Assembly: GCA_016210495.1 (NCBI GenBank)
Contig: JACQUC010000019.1
Coordinates: 1 to 5,306, forward strand
DNA length: 5,306 bases
Reading direction: 5' to 3'
DNA from: Chloroflexota bacterium
Lineage (GTDB): Bacteria > Chloroflexota > FW602-bin22 > JACPRP01
Shown: piece after piece, positions 87 to 5,306 of the stretch
How positions within the stretch are numbered: the first letter of the stretch is position 1
How the letters are laid out: every line of letters starts with the position of its first letter
Notes under the pieces: model-generated
What the model was told of the DNA's origin: nothing
The model's input: only the letters and a program-made list of their open reading frames with translations
Database searches by the model: none
Translations under genes and position numbers: made by a program

Positions 87-153
87 GCGGCGCGCGGGAC
101 AGGTACGACCCAACCAACCTCGCGTGGTCCGGTGCTCCCAGCGGGAGGGCGAC

Positions 154-510
154 ATGGAGGGCCTGGCGGTCCGGACGGGCGTGGACCTGGTGGACCTACG
201 GCAGTTCGAGAGCGCATTGTCGCGCGGCGGCGAGGCCCTCCGGCGACGGCTGTTCCATCCCTCGGAGGAGGCCGGGGCGGACGTGGAGCGGCTGGCGGCG
301 GTGTTCGCGGCCAAGGAGGCGGCGTTCAAGGCCCTGTCGCTCCCGCCGGGCGACTGGCACGCCGTCGAGGTCCGCCACACGCCGGAGGGCAGGCCGTACC
401 TCGCCTTCGCGCCGGAGTTCGACACGGCCCGCGTCCTGAGCTGCGACCTGAGCGTCAGCCACAACGGCGGCTTTGTCGTCGCCTCGGTGGTGGCCCTGCT
501 GCGCGCGTGA
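154..510 (+). CDS. acpS: Holo-[acyl-carrier-protein] synthase (AcpS-type 4'-phosphopantetheinyl transferase)
   Basis: A 118-residue protein that would transfer 4'-phosphopantetheine from CoA to the conserved serine of acyl carrier protein, in the cytoplasm, making ACP competent for fatty-acid synthesis. Family signatures are present: GVD at residues 9-11 near the N-terminus (the Asp is a Mg ligand in AcpS), FAAKEAAFK at 51-59 (Glu55 is the second Mg ligand), and a C-terminal SVSH at 100-103. Length matches the usual ~120 residues of AcpS. The ATG at 154 is chosen because GGAGG at 144-148 lies 5 bases upstream; a GTG at 124 would add an unconserved ten residues. The gene is very GC-rich, like the dinB fragment at the other end, so it is native chromosomal flank. 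The sequence is somewhat diverged, so a pathway-specific PPTase rather than the housekeeping one is possible. Confidence 0.88.
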   Translation: MEGLAVRTGVDLVDLRQFESALSRGGEALRRRLFHPSEEAGADVERLAAVFAAKEAAFKALSLPPGDWHAVEVRHTPEGRPYLAFAPEFDTARVLSCDLSVSHNGGFVVASVVALLRA

Positions 511-757: not shown

Positions 758-1924
758 ATGCCGAACGTCACAGTCGTTGACCAGCCTCTCGGTGGCAGAG
801 GGAACAGGGCGGGGGATCATGTCGCCGAGCTACTCGCTCGCACGGCGGATCGCTTTGACACTGTTCGCATCGCTGTTGCATTCGCAAAGGCAAGCGGTGT
901 GGGGATCCTTTTCGATCACCTTCGGGCCTTCCCATCACCCGATCGCACCCTTGACGTGACCGTGGGTGTGAACCACAGGGGCACCTCCCGCCAAGGCCTC
1001 GAGCTACTGTTGAAGACTGGTGCATCCGTGAATATCTTTAACAACCCCGGCGGAGGCACCTTTCACCCCAAGCTTTACCTCTTCGAGAGGACCAACACGG
1101 AGGGAGTAGCACTCGTGGGTTCCAACAACCTCACAAGAGGAGGTCTGTATGAGAACTACGAACTCAGTGTACGACTAGACTACGACTTGACTGTCGCTGA
1201 AGATGCGACAGCTTTTGACCACGCTTGTGGGGTGTATGACAAGTACATCAATGAGGGGAGCGGAACTGTACGCCGTCTTGATCCCGCGCTCCTCCTTGAG
1301 CTCGACCAGCAGGGTTACTTGCTGGACGAGACCGCGCCCACTCACGTAGGTCCAGGAGACACCCCACCTTCATCAGGCGCGACAACGGCGCTGTTTCGCC
1401 GCGTGCCAGTGCCACGGGGACCGCGGGTATCTTCATCCGTTCCCTCTGTTGCGACTGTGGATCAGCCTGGCAAAGTGCTCGCCACATTTGCAATGACTCT
1501 GGGCCCGCGTGATACGCGTCAGCAGACGGGGTATTCGAGGGACATTTTCATTCCCCTCGCAGCGCGTGACGCGAATCCCGACTTCTGGGGGTGGCCTGAA
1601 GCTTTTCAAGCAGCGCCAGGCACGAGGGGGCACTACCGAGAGAGACGTATCGACCTCCGCGCGACGCCTGCCCAAGGCCCCTCGGTTCACCTGCAACAGG
1701 TGCGGCTCTACGGTTACGCTGAGCGCAGCGAGTTCCGTCTCAACTGCGGCTCGCTCGTGCAGAGCGCAAGTCCCGGAGACATCTTCGTCATCATTCTCGT
1801 CCCCGCTGGCTCTGGTTATGAGTACGAAGCGATGATCATCCCTCAGGGCCGACCCATGCACCGCGCTTTCCTCGGCACATGCACAAACTTGCGACCGTCA
1901 GGCAAGAGGTGGGGCTATTCCTAA
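758..1924 (+). CDS. PLD-superfamily type IIS restriction endonuclease, BfiI/NgoFVII-like
   Basis: A 388-residue protein predicted to cut DNA through a phospholipase D-type, metal-independent active site. The N-terminal domain (about 1-165) carries H103-P-K105 in FHPKLYLF, then GSNN at 121-124 and a conserved-looking YENYELS at 131-137: one HxK...GSxN half-motif, so a dimer would build one catalytic centre, as known for BfiI and Nuc. A proline-, glycine- and serine-rich linker (about 188-237) follows. The C-terminal part (about 238-388) includes YSRDIFIPLAARDANPDFWG at 259-278 and resembles the DNA-binding domain of NgoFVII-type enzymes (B3-like in BfiI). Length is close to BfiI (about 358 residues). 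The gene converges on two methyltransferase genes, overlapping the nearer by 4 bases, which strongly supports a restriction role. Sequence specificity cannot be read off. A PLD-family repair or toxin nuclease is less likely given the context. Confidence 0.85.
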   Translation: MPNVTVVDQPLGGRGNRAGDHVAELLARTADRFDTVRIAVAFAKASGVGILFDHLRAFPSPDRTLDVTVGVNHRGTSRQGLELLLKTGASVNIFNNPGGGTFHPKLYLFERTNTEGVALVGSNNLTRGGLYENYELSVRLDYDLTVAEDATAFDHACGVYDKYINEGSGTVRRLDPALLLELDQQGYLLDETAPTHVGPGDTPPSSGATTALFRRVPVPRGPRVSSSVPSVATVDQPGKVLATFAMTLGPRDTRQQTGYSRDIFIPLAARDANPDFWGWPEAFQAAPGTRGHYRERRIDLRATPAQGPSVHLQQVRLYGYAERSEFRLNCGSLVQSASPGDIFVIILVPAGSGYEYEAMIIPQGRPMHRAFLGTCTNLRPSGKRWGYS

Positions 1925-3504
1925 GATCGGGCCTGGAAGTGCACTACGGACTCCGACCTAACAGCATTCCTCTTGAATATGTCCCTGGGGGTCAGCATGT
2001 CCATGGGGATCAGTTCCACGAGCCGCAATCCCATTGCTTCTCCAATTGACGCGAGGTGGGTGGCCGTTCCGATCTCTATCCGCGTTCCCTGCGCAACGGT
2101 GTGGTTGTTACCTACGACTAGGAACACATGACCCTCGGACCGCGTCACGTGGCTTAGCTTGAGCAGGATCACCCTCATGTCAAGAAAGTACTTGGCCAAC
2201 AACGCCGGCAGATTCCGCCTGCGAAACCCCGCGTCGTTTCCGCCATAGGCTTCGGCCACTCGATCGATGAGTGCCACCGTCTCAGGGGGCAGGAGGCTCT
2301 TGGAGCGCAGGTATTCTTCCCAGAGTGCGTCGCGTTGCCGCCTTGTCACCTCCCTGTTCCCGATCATTCCTGCCTCTAGTTTCCTATGGAGGTTCCGGGG
2401 AAGCAGGTTCAGGAAGGACAGGCTGAGACGGTCTGTATCAATGTACGGCAGCGCGGTTGCGTATGGCGGGGACGTGATCACAGCATCGACCCGTTTGAAC
2501 AGCACTTTCGCGTCATCAAGTACAGAAGCGGCATCACCACCGATTACTTTGAACCTCGGTGCCCGAACGCCACCTTCTTCAAGCAAGAAGGCGACAACAT
2601 GTCTGACGCTATTGCCGAGTTGCTTCAGGAATGTCGCAACAACGTCGGTACCGGTTTCAAGCATGTCCTTTCTGCGTATTCGAAGGTCGTCGGTTTCCTG
2701 CCAAGACACCGTCCGAAGGATATCGCTGAGGCAGACCCAGCACAGATCCCTGGCGGGCGACGCTTCCATCTGGTCAATGAGGGTTGCTATGCGATCAAGT
2801 TCCAGCAAGATGTTGGGCGCGAACCACCGCGCAAGGTAATACTGGTCCTGCTGCGTCAGCTTCTCAAGCCATGAGCACGCCAATGGAATACGGAGAACCG
2901 GCCGGTCCATGAGCGCGTCTCGTAGCGCCTCATACTGGCGGACGAGTCCCTCCGGGTTGGCTCGAAGCAACGCGCATTTCGTCCGGCTTATCACCACCGA
3001 AAGGGGATTGAGGTCCACCCCGATGGCGGCGTAGCCGGATAAATTGGCTTCCACGAGTGTGGTCCCGCTGCCACACATCGGATCAAGAACGGTGCCCTCA
3101 CTCTCAAGGTCGCTCAGGTTAAGCAGAGCTCGCACCAACTGGGGGAAGAACTTCCCACGGTAGTCATGGATGTCATGTGGGCCATAGCGGAGGCTCCGCC
3201 TGCTTGGTACCGGGATGGACTCACCACGAAAGGGCAGCACCCGCAGAAGGTCTGCAGGTCTGATCCCGTTTCTCACAACCGATGCGGTGGCTTCGCGCCG
3301 CACCTGGATAGTCCACATCGCTGCGGTCCCTTGGACGATCTCCCAATAGGCGAGCCTGTCCACCAACACGCTCTCGTGCACGGAGCATGTCACCTCATAG
3401 TAGTCGTTGCCCGTTCTGGTCACGGTCTCAGGCGAAGCGCCAGCGAACTTCGCCAGTTCACGGAGCGCCAGCTCTCGCTCAAACGGTTGGATGTACGGTT
3501 TCAT
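1921..3504 (-). CDS. DNA methyltransferase 2 of the R-M system (probable N4-cytosine, SPPY type)
   Basis: A 527-residue SAM-dependent DNA amino-methyltransferase predicted to protect one strand of the partner nuclease's site. Visible motifs are HDYRGKFFPQ at 113-122 (motif X-like), LDPMCGSGTTLVEA at 140-153 (motif I, SAM binding) with the acidic VDL at 163-165, and TSPPY at 344-348 (motif IV, catalytic). SPPY is typical of N4-cytosine enzymes; N6-adenine cannot be excluded. Motif I precedes IV with about 190 residues between, so the target-recognition region is probably there. Residues 1-80 form a separate N-terminal domain with no clear DNA-binding motif, faintly like the N-terminus of Trm11-type tRNA methyltransferases. 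ATG 3504 is chosen because MKPYIQPFERELALREL reads as a natural N-terminus. GTG 3534, two bases after the upstream TAG and six bases after GGGGG, is a real alternative (537 residues). It follows methyltransferase 1 closely, so the two are probably one operon. Confidence 0.85.
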   Translation of the reverse strand: MKPYIQPFERELALRELAKFAGASPETVTRTGNDYYEVTCSVHESVLVDRLAYWEIVQGTAAMWTIQVRREATASVVRNGIRPADLLRVLPFRGESIPVPSRRSLRYGPHDIHDYRGKFFPQLVRALLNLSDLESEGTVLDPMCGSGTTLVEANLSGYAAIGVDLNPLSVVISRTKCALLRANPEGLVRQYEALRDALMDRPVLRIPLACSWLEKLTQQDQYYLARWFAPNILLELDRIATLIDQMEASPARDLCWVCLSDILRTVSWQETDDLRIRRKDMLETGTDVVATFLKQLGNSVRHVVAFLLEEGGVRAPRFKVIGGDAASVLDDAKVLFKRVDAVITSPPYATALPYIDTDRLSLSFLNLLPRNLHRKLEAGMIGNREVTRRQRDALWEEYLRSKSLLPPETVALIDRVAEAYGGNDAGFRRRNLPALLAKYFLDMRVILLKLSHVTRSEGHVFLVVGNNHTVAQGTRIEIGTATHLASIGEAMGLRLVELIPMDMLTPRDIFKRNAVRSESVVHFQARS

Positions 3505-3509
3505 CCTGC

Positions 3510-3527
3510 AGACCACAGTTGCGGTCT
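3510..3527 (-). promoter_or_regulatory. Small hairpin between the two methyltransferase genes
   Basis: On the minus strand AGACCGC and GTGGTCT form a 7-bp stem (one G-U pair) around a 4-base loop, five bases before the ATG at 3504 and after the upstream stop at 3537. It could modulate translation of methyltransferase 2. If the GTG at 3534 is the true start, the hairpin lies inside the coding sequence. Function is inferred from position only. Confidence 0.25.
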
Positions 3528-3536
3528 CAACCACTG

Positions 3537-4925
3537 CTAACCCCCGTTGCGGAGCACCAGGATGTGCTCCTCTCGAATCTTGCCAATCTTGGGGTTGAAT
3601 GACTTCCGATTGTCCTGCAGTCGGCGGGTCAGCCACGCATCGACTTCAAACGACAGCTTAATCGCTATATCCGCGAGCAACTGGTCGTTACGAATCACCC
3701 GGCCCGCGATCGTCGAGTCGCCGACCACAAGACAGCAGTACCCTTGGGGTTGCAGGGTTTTGCGTATCCAATCAAGAATGCCGGTCATTTCGGCCCTGAA
3801 CGTTTCCACTGTCGCCCTGTTTGGCCCTCTGCTGCTATACTTGCGGTGACTGCCAATCTCCTCCTTCTTGAACTTCACGGCATCCATCCCAAGCCACAGC
3901 ATTCGGGTCCTGTGATACAGATGGTAGCTATACGCGTTCGGATAGGGAGGTGAACAGACCACCAGATCTACAGTTCCAACCTCGGAGGGAAGGGGCGGAT
4001 TGTTCATGTCCGCTTCAATTACCCTGGCCGCGAAGCGCTCCTCCACGACATCCGAAAACTCCTCTGCGCGCGCAACGACTTGTGCCAATGCGCGCGAGAA
4101 CCGCCGGACTGTTTCGCCCGGCGCTACATGTTTCTGCCGCCGGACATATCTGGTATCTGAGTCCTGACGAGACACAGAAATAATAATTGAGGACAGGCTG
4201 GCCTGCGCAAGAGTGTGCAATCCAGCAGGCTTGGCTGTTTCACACAACTGTCGCAGGTACCTGAGTTCCTCAATGACGTGGGGTTCGAACCAGAATTCAA
4301 TATCTCGTGGACATGGAGCTGCCGCAGGTTCCGCACACCATTGTTCCAGGAACGACATTTGCCCTGTGCCGAAGCGCTGCTCTGCGCTCGCCAGGGCATC
4401 CCTTATCGCGTTGGCCCCTTCCAAATCTGCTTCAGTTACCCTCAACGTTTTTGCTCTTGATATCAGACAGGCTATTGGATTCGCGTCAATGCCCACCGCT
4501 TGTCGCTTCAGCAGCAGCGCTTCCACAAGCGTAGTCCCACTGCCGCAGAAAGGGTCAAGCACCGTGTCGCCCACGGACGAAAGCTCCTGGATCAGCGCAT
4601 TGGGAATCTGTGGAATGAATTTTGCGGGATAGGGATGAAGGCCATGCGTGAGGTAGTTCGTTGTGGCACCGGCGAAGTCCCAATCGAGAGTGGTCAGCAC
4701 GGAATGAGGCCTCGGTAGCGGAGTTGCATCATAGACGGCTGGCGTCTCAGCGAGCACGCTGGCCGTGTTCCCAGCGAATGACGCTATCTGGCGCGCTTCG
4801 TCAGGTGTGAATTGACGCCAACCTCTCCGATCCCTCCTTGGCTCTGGCACAAGGCCCGCCCTGAGCCAGCGGAGCAAAGTGTCGCGATGGATCCCTGCCA
4901 GTTTCGCGACTTCGTGGGTATTCAT
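3537..4925 (-). CDS. DNA methyltransferase 1 with N-terminal MerR-like HTH (probable N4-cytosine, SPPY type)
   Basis: A 462-residue SAM-dependent DNA methyltransferase. Residues 1-50 form a MerR-like winged helix-turn-helix: NTHEVAKLAGIHRDTLLRWL, then a basic wing (RRDRRGWRQF) and the TPDEARQI helix. The catalytic part has HPYPAKFIPQ at 97-106 (motif X-like), LDPFCGSGTTLVEA at 123-136 (motif I) with GID at 145-147, and CSPPY at 324-328 (motif IV). SPPY favours N4-cytosine methylation. It is collinear with methyltransferase 2 beyond the core motifs (WFEP at 212-215; SRQDSDTRYVRRQK at 252-265), so the two are paralogues, presumably one per strand of an asymmetric site. ATG 4925 begins exactly at the HTH. 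An upstream ATG at 4958 would add 11 residues, but it lies within the promoter proposed here and its GGAG is too close. It is the first gene of a probable two-gene operon; the HTH may read the dyad upstream and repress its own expression. Confidence 0.87.
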   Translation of the reverse strand: MNTHEVAKLAGIHRDTLLRWLRAGLVPEPRRDRRGWRQFTPDEARQIASFAGNTASVLAETPAVYDATPLPRPHSVLTTLDWDFAGATTNYLTHGLHPYPAKFIPQIPNALIQELSSVGDTVLDPFCGSGTTLVEALLLKRQAVGIDANPIACLISRAKTLRVTEADLEGANAIRDALASAEQRFGTGQMSFLEQWCAEPAAAPCPRDIEFWFEPHVIEELRYLRQLCETAKPAGLHTLAQASLSSIIISVSRQDSDTRYVRRQKHVAPGETVRRFSRALAQVVARAEEFSDVVEERFAARVIEADMNNPPLPSEVGTVDLVVCSPPYPNAYSYHLYHRTRMLWLGMDAVKFKKEEIGSHRKYSSRGPNRATVETFRAEMTGILDWIRKTLQPQGYCCLVVGDSTIAGRVIRNDQLLADIAIKLSFEVDAWLTRRLQDNRKSFNPKIGKIREEHILVLRNGG

Positions 4926-4934
4926 GCCATCGTA

Positions 4935-4952
4935 CCTATATGCAAGTATAGG
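4935..4952. promoter_or_regulatory. 18-base inverted repeat (candidate operator) before methyltransferase 1
   Basis: CCTATA (4935-4940) and TATAGG (4947-4952) are perfect inverted half-sites separated by six bases. They sit 9 bases upstream of the methyltransferase 1 ATG and over the transcript start expected from the TTGACA promoter. A symmetric AT-rich site here suits a dimeric HTH protein acting as repressor. The best local candidate is the MerR-like domain of methyltransferase 1 itself, since no separate controller gene is present. The dyad is seen directly; its role is inference. Confidence 0.45.
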
Positions 4953-4956
4953 CAGC

Positions 4957-4985
4957 ATTCTCCATTACTTGGCTTTTCCTGTCAA
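4957..4985 (-). promoter_or_regulatory. Candidate sigma70 promoter for the methyltransferase operon
   Basis: On the minus strand a perfect -35 hexamer TTGACA (4985-4980) is followed after 17 bases by GAGAAT (4962-4957), which keeps the A at position 2 and the AAT at the end of the -10 consensus (4 of 6). A transcript start near 4950 would fall inside the 18-base dyad and leave a leader of about 25 bases before ATG 4925. A second -10-like TATACT (4950-4945) lies within the dyad but lacks a good -35 at normal spacing. Confidence 0.5.
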
Positions 4986-5015: not shown

Positions 5016-5306
5016 TCACCTCGCCCTCGTCTCCCCCACCGTCCTTCCGAACGGCCTGTACCGCGTTGGCGTCGCGCCCTGCGCCGCCGCGCCCTTGTGC
5101 ACGGAGTGCACGCCGAACCGCGACCTGATCTCGTCCAGCGCCGTCGCCAGCCTATGCTCCCGCTCGTCCGCCGTCTCCCAAAGTGAAAGCTGCTGGCTCC
5201 GCACCGACAGCTCGCCCACGCCAACCCCGATGAGCCGCACGTGGCGGTCGTCCCGGGCGAGCTCGCGGTCCAGCAGCTCGGCGCCCGCGGCCAGGAGGGC
5301 CTCGTC
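5016..5306 (-). CDS. dinB: DNA polymerase IV (DinB, Y-family), C-terminal fragment
   Basis: The last 96 codons of a Y-family translesion polymerase; the catalytic palm and fingers lie beyond the window edge. The fragment shows the end of the little-finger domain (HVRLIGVGVGELS at residues 22-34), then QLSLW at 39-43, which matches the beta-clamp-binding peptide (QLxLF type) of DinB and ImuB proteins, and the family tail DEIRSRFGVHSVHKGA at 58-73. It would bypass damaged template bases while tethered to the sliding clamp. Codons are strongly GC-biased like acpS, so it is native flank. It ends at a TGA 90 bases upstream of methyltransferase 1 on the same strand, with no clear terminator between, so read-through into the R-M operon is possible. 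Confidence 0.85.
   Translation of the reverse strand, partial: DEALLAAGAELLDRELARDDRHVRLIGVGVGELSVRSQQLSLWETADEREHRLATALDEIRSRFGVHSVHKGAAAQGATPTRYRPFGRTVGETRAR

Follow-up and report, generated by a model that had tools for sequence, protein, structure and literature searches.

The window analysed here (the whole stretch of 5,306 nucleotides, contig JACQUC010000019.1 of a Chloroflexota bacterium) carries a restriction-modification (R-M) system composed of a nuclease gene, R, and two DNA methyltransferase genes, M1 and M2. The methyltransferase genes are adjacent on the same strand and R is convergent to them, the stop codons of R and M2 overlapping by 4 base pairs (bp). A preliminary description of this DNA had assigned the three genes to the BfiI type; the unusual part of the system, which that description left unnoticed, is a MerR-type domain at the N-terminus of M1 together with an operator-like site before the M1 start. 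The elements of the locus are the following.

758..1924, plus strand: R, BfiI-like restriction endonuclease of 388 residues, with an N-terminal PLD nuclease domain and a C-terminal B3-type recognition domain.
1921..3504, minus strand: M2, SPPY DNA methyltransferase of 527 residues counted from the ATG at 3504; a GTG further upstream, near 3534, could serve as start instead.
3537..4925, minus strand: M1, SPPY DNA methyltransferase of 462 residues with an N-terminal MerR-type winged helix-turn-helix (wHTH).
4755..4925, minus strand: predicted MerR-type wHTH of M1, residues 1–57.
4934..4953, minus strand: operator-like site GCCTATACTTGCATATAGGT, 20 bp, pattern RMNTATANKY-RMNTATANKY.
4957..4985, minus strand: sigma-70-like promoter of M1, TTGACA-17-GAGAAT, 10 of 12 consensus positions.

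R, the start codon of which is consistent with its homologues, matches BfiI (ACTGGG 5/4; isoschizomer BmrI) in both domains, although the two proteins are only about 20–25% identical. Residues H103, K105, N124 and E135 of the PLD domain align in register with the active-site residues H105, K107, N125 and E136 of BfiI. The B3-type recognition domain is present as in BfiI, structure 2c1l is the top fold match of R (for the PLD part it ties with SauUSI), and the Pfam comparison suggested in the preliminary description gives PF09565 for R and N6_N4_Mtase for M1; the claim of a PLD nuclease with a NgoFVII/BfiI-type C-terminal domain stands. A K107A mutant of BfiI is named in PMC10388346. SauUSI, an ATP-dependent PLD restriction enzyme, differs in having a helicase in the same chain (806–953 residues); it is matched by the PLD part of R alone, and the Pfam matches of R up to E 1 include no helicase domain, which sets R apart from SauUSI-like type IV enzymes. 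The earlier remark that PLD-type restriction enzymes are few is dated: at least 451 homologues of R were found at E ≤ 0.001 (8000 candidates scored), and a 2014 review describes such enzymes as "far from rare" (PMC4081073). The R relative of Fictibacillus (L056) has no PDB match at E ≤ 0.001, and in a Priestia stretch (L082) an M1-like gene is present and R was not found within the stretch.

M1 and M2 (METHYLTRANSFERASES) both carry CGSGTT and, about 200 residues further on, SPPY, as had been stated for these two minus-strand genes adjoining the nuclease; they are mutually related (about 90 bits) but diverged. Both have the motifs of SPPY amino-methyltransferases, and the SPPY motif is typical of N4-cytosine enzymes; a fold search with M1 returned general Rossmann methyltransferases with TM-scores of about 0.3 and is uninformative on class. 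BfiI, likewise accompanied by two methyltransferases, reportedly has two N4-cytosine enzymes, one per strand.

The composition of the trio was compared in 82 loci, comprising the best 80 of 314 R relatives, a Rhizobium plasmid locus and the window (L081 was chosen by its M1 match and not by R). M1 and M2 are convergent with R in 35 loci, fused into one M1-M2 protein and convergent with R in 18, and co-directional with R in 5; methyltransferases thus stand beside R, as a separate pair or fused, in 58 of the 82, and the remainder consists of 6 partial sets and 18 loci with R alone (3 of these at contig edges). The Rhizobium anhuiense plasmid locus has the identical layout, with 4-bp overlaps. 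The three-part BfiI-like composition is conserved across phyla, and the fusion of M1 with M2 in 18 loci argues that the methyltransferases work as a pair, as expected for enzymes that would guard the two strands of an asymmetric site. There is some small chance that the PLD nuclease belongs instead to a system that is not of the BfiI type IIS, e.g., one with a quasi-palindromic site (NgoFVII/CglI-like), redundant methyltransferases and possibly an ATPase partner elsewhere; R does share the PLD nuclease fold and the PF09565 match with NgoFVII, NgoAVII and CglI.

The fused M1-M2 proteins (about 910–1000 residues; L010, L011, L013, L043, L045-L047, L050-L053, L062, L064, L065, L070, L071, L077, L079) lie beside a convergent PLD nuclease and are devoid of the MerR domain, and no operator was found upstream of them wherever DNA could be scanned (L011, with too little DNA, excepted). 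R relatives without an M1/M2-like gene (at least 90 bits, within 3.5 kb), namely L044, L048, L049, L054, L063, L066-L069, L072-L076 and L080, may represent PLD restriction systems of another sort, associated with different partners.

The MerR-type domain of M1 is matched by PF00376 (34.5 bits, cut-off 28.2) and PF13411, and in M1 relatives the segment H(R/K)DTLLRWLR within it is nearly fixed. An AlphaFold model predicts, at the N-terminus of M1, helices at residues 3-10 and 14-23, a strand pair corresponding to the wing and a helix at 41-57; the coiled-coil dimerisation helix is absent from the modelled wHTH, and the linker into the methyltransferase is of low confidence (residues 56-69, pLDDT, the predicted local distance difference test, under 50).

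The site before M1 was defined in 29 loci, window included, that were picked by a simple MerR pattern. Each of these loci has a pair of TATA cores, spaced by 10 bp, ahead of the M1 start; the pair is complete in 27 and has one mismatch in the other 2. A complete pair is found in 0.9% of random windows from the same loci. With a leave-one-out 20-bp matrix the operator is the best site of the whole locus in 29 of 29 (16.9–27.7 bits), and nothing more than 25 bp away from it in these loci exceeds 10.8 bits. In the window it scores 26.2 bits and the runner-up elsewhere 2.6. Identity between loci amounts to 0.69 within the operator, and to 0.25–0.30 in the 30 bases before and the 10 after it (28 loci, L025 left out). 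The quarter-sites agree as direct repeats (0.54 vs. 0.29 permuted, p 0.007; 28 sites, kinship uncorrected; L014, L025 and L029 left out) and in the same test do not agree as inverted repeats. Four loci (L019, L024, L025 and L032) show an extra 10-bp unit of 11–19 bits overlapping or adjacent to the operator, as if the array could be extended to three or more units.

The occurrence of the site follows that of the domain. Where an intact MerR domain is lacking (54 loci), no site exceeds 12.3 bits; counted by methyltransferase open reading frame (ORF), a site of at least 15 bits precedes 31 of the 32 with a MerR hit and none of the 47 without, with a matrix that includes the 29 sites. This count covers 79 ORFs (L034 entering twice), with 11 duplicate or re-fetched loci (L083-L091, L108, L109) and hits under 90 bits left out, and 3 of the 47 MerR-minus ORFs had under 110 bp to scan (L011, 4 bp; L103, 27 bp; L030, 107 bp). 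The exception among the MerR-hit ORFs is L006, in which a truncated MerR remnant is accompanied by a decayed site of 8.8 bits. L017, an M1 relative whose ORF is missing most or all of the MerR domain, has no operator. The MerR-containing loci are distributed over seven phyla (Chloroflexota, Acidobacteriota, Planctomycetota, Gemmatimonadota, Verrucomicrobiota, Bacteroidota and Pseudomonadota), as labelled by record titles and tree labels; most are metagenome bins, and single labels may err. On a tree of M1 built from 72 of the 79 ORF rows, with L006 set MerR-minus by hand, domain and site undergo 4 changes each and in the same rows, which indicates joint loss; the well-supported branches carry only 2 MerR/site contrasts, too few for a test. 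Of 30 loci tried, 28 could be evaluated upstream of R, and none has an operator there (maximum 1.1 bits); L004 was dropped for its short upstream DNA (only 77 bp), and so was L095, which ends inside R, so that the slice included the M1 site and its value of 23.3 there is an artefact. That the operator is a target of the R-M system placed inside the promoter is unlikely, given that MerR-minus relatives are without the site, that the conserved core is TATA and that the flanks are variable.

The order in the window is promoter, operator (3 bp past the -10 hexamer) and M1 ATG, and a protein bound at this position would block transcription. A promoter scan of the whole region yielded 2 sites of such quality vs. 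1.6 expected, so the weight for the M1 promoter rests on position and conservation: TTGAC occurs upstream in 20 of the 29 loci vs. 2.2 expected from shuffles, and the best -10-like hexamer lies 17 bp downstream of the -35 in 19, under a scan of spacers of 16–19 bp that leaves longer, MerR-type spacers outside. Promoter calls were weak in 11 of the 29 (4-5 mismatches). The operator begins past the end of the -10-like hexamer in 20 loci, in 16 of them by no more than 15 bp; in the other 9 the two overlap. These positions also bear on a reading in which M1 binds the tandem site as a classical MerR activator, or the site is a methylation-sensitive element, and M1 boosts its operon. MerR proteins are mostly activators, and the 9 loci just mentioned have the site lying across the hexamer, and in L003, L004, L015 and L028 across the spacer too; yet binding past the hexamer, as in the 20 others, would block initiation or escape, and the 17-bp spacer prevailing within the range scanned also speaks against activation, which appears unlikely overall. 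Autorepression by M1 agrees better with this arrangement.

Since the operator pattern was devised with the data already in view, held-out loci matter. In five phylum samples, genomes with an M1 match numbered 3 of 395, 3 of 400, 2 of 398, 1 of 384 and 2 of 393; five of these 11 genomes were centre genomes already known. Among the remaining six, L093, a locus from a fresh genome sample whose MerR domain (82.3 bits) is missed by the simple pattern, has a site of 22.0 bits; L091 is apparently the L015 locus (same operator and length), L110 contains one in-frame stop, and L092, L094 and L107 have neither MerR nor site. Viral contigs contributed 12 loci, with MerR by the simple pattern in L095 alone and L103-L105 cut or partial; the L095 site scores 23.3 bits, but its operator is the same as in its close kin L029. 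Among 120 M1 relatives listed, 29 have at least 8 residues before the MerR anchor, none of them identical over the last 100 residues to loci already used. Back-translation through the operator pattern is possible for 5 of these 29 N-terminal extensions and for none of 5800 control segments; of the remaining 24, many do not reach far enough to cover it, and those of P0215 and P0128 have the length but are incompatible with the pattern.

An ordinary BfiI-like system in which the MerR-type domain is no regulator and helps M1 to recognize its target or to position DNA during methylation would fit the observation that M1 relatives without the domain retain the whole methyltransferase, the domain being an add-on; it leaves unexplained why the 20-bp site stands before M1 only where the domain is intact and why both are lost jointly, and is considered improbable. 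A separate host protein acting at the site, with the MerR association as inherited linkage, is the least credible account, and a very improbable one, for although the MerR-containing loci are confined to one part of the methyltransferase tree, records from seven phyla contain the site, with unconserved flanks, and it is missing or decayed wherever the domain was lost, including L006 and L017.

The preferred reading, to which a probability of about 0.77 is given, is that the locus encodes a BfiI-like type IIS R-M system whose expression is probably set by its own methyltransferase, M1 acting as autorepressor in place of a C protein; it draws on sequence comparison and the structural model. By analogy with BfiI, R would cut outside a short asymmetric site in a metal-free reaction with a covalent histidine intermediate, and M1 and M2 would each be responsible for N4-methylation of one of the site's strands. 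In a newly entered naive cell the M operon would be strongly expressed and later throttled, as the wHTH of M1 would bind the operator and block its own promoter; R, transcribed from its own promoter, would be balanced against this autorepression. A more speculative step concerns the convergent arrangement. The R and M stops overlap in 20 of 30 MerR-containing convergent loci (L006 counted among them) and a simple scan detected no terminator-like site at the R/M2 junction of the window, so M transcription could run past the overlapping stops and antisense through R; the convergent polymerases might then hold R down until M1 throttles the promoter, and the outcome might be a delay of R without a C protein. 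Convergence is also found in loci without MerR.

A broader proposal can be put forward only tentatively, as one somewhat less probable than its negation: a branch of BfiI-like systems, spread over seven phyla, may have replaced the C protein by a MerR/BldC-type domain on one methyltransferase, which would count itself via the tandem 10-bp operator while convergent transcription links restriction to the count, the whole constituting a three-gene self-timing module. It has long been asked how an R-M system can enter a new host without killing it, and the known answers are mostly C proteins or self-binding methyltransferases of another class. A MerR-type domain with a 20-bp operator on an SPPY methyltransferase would represent a further, directly testable design; such a domain with its operator could account for transfer of the family between distant phyla independently of host factors, and the operator motif offers a means to tell intact from decayed systems.

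The surroundings of the trio comprise two flanking genes.

124-510, plus strand: holo-ACP synthase.
5016-5306, minus strand: apparent C-terminus of a DNA polymerase IV-like protein (Pfam matches weak and under the cut-off).

The closest named relatives of the holo-ACP synthase are from Chloroflexota (73% identity), and the G+C content is 72–74% in the left flank and 67% in the right one, vs. 54–63% in the trio; on the basis of the lower G+C and of these relatives, the trio has the appearance of an island gained by horizontal transfer within Chloroflexota DNA. Several IMG/VR contigs (L095-L097, L099, L100, L103) also carry the trio or its fused form beside R, and L100 shares an identical methyltransferase domain with Paracoccus sphaerophysae L062; such contigs may be prophages or misassigned. 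M1 had no match at E ≤ 1e-20 among phage records.

Regarding known regulatory systems, no MerR-type domain on a methyltransferase regulating an R-M system was noticed in the titles and abstract beginnings of the literature searched, coverage of which excludes most subscription papers; the term MerR is absent from a review on R-M regulation (PMC3874152) and from the RptR paper (PMC12255303). In C-protein systems such as AhdI, Esp1396I and Kpn2I, convergent R and M units are under transcriptional control (PMC5333194). The convergent units are shared by the present locus, where however the presumed regulator is a methyltransferase domain and R is without such an operator; no C gene was recognized between the flanks, small ORFs not having been searched individually. 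With regard to BfiI, the MerR domain and the upstream site of M1 constitute a putative difference.

For DNA binding, the nearest analogue of the M1 domain is BldC, a MerR-like protein with a wHTH and, as in M1, no coiled coil, which binds 9-bp direct repeats head to tail (PMC5859096). BldC is a stand-alone protein of 68 residues and its repeats measure 9 bp, whereas the period of the M1 site is 10 bp. For regulation, a parallel lies in methyltransferases of the SsoII/Ecl18kI kind, which are m5C (5-methylcytosine) enzymes with a different helix-turn-helix (HTH). These repress themselves through an N-terminal HTH at an operator overlapping the promoter (PMC3874152). M1 appears similar in combining, as judged from its sequence, an N-terminal HTH with an operator-like site at its own promoter; it differs in that the domain is a MerR-type wHTH on an SPPY enzyme, that the system contains two methyltransferases and that the site is a tandem 10-bp repeat. 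M1 thus seems to resemble the SsoII kind in its presumed mechanism, yet it would not be a member of that group, of which C5-cytosine methyltransferases are typical.
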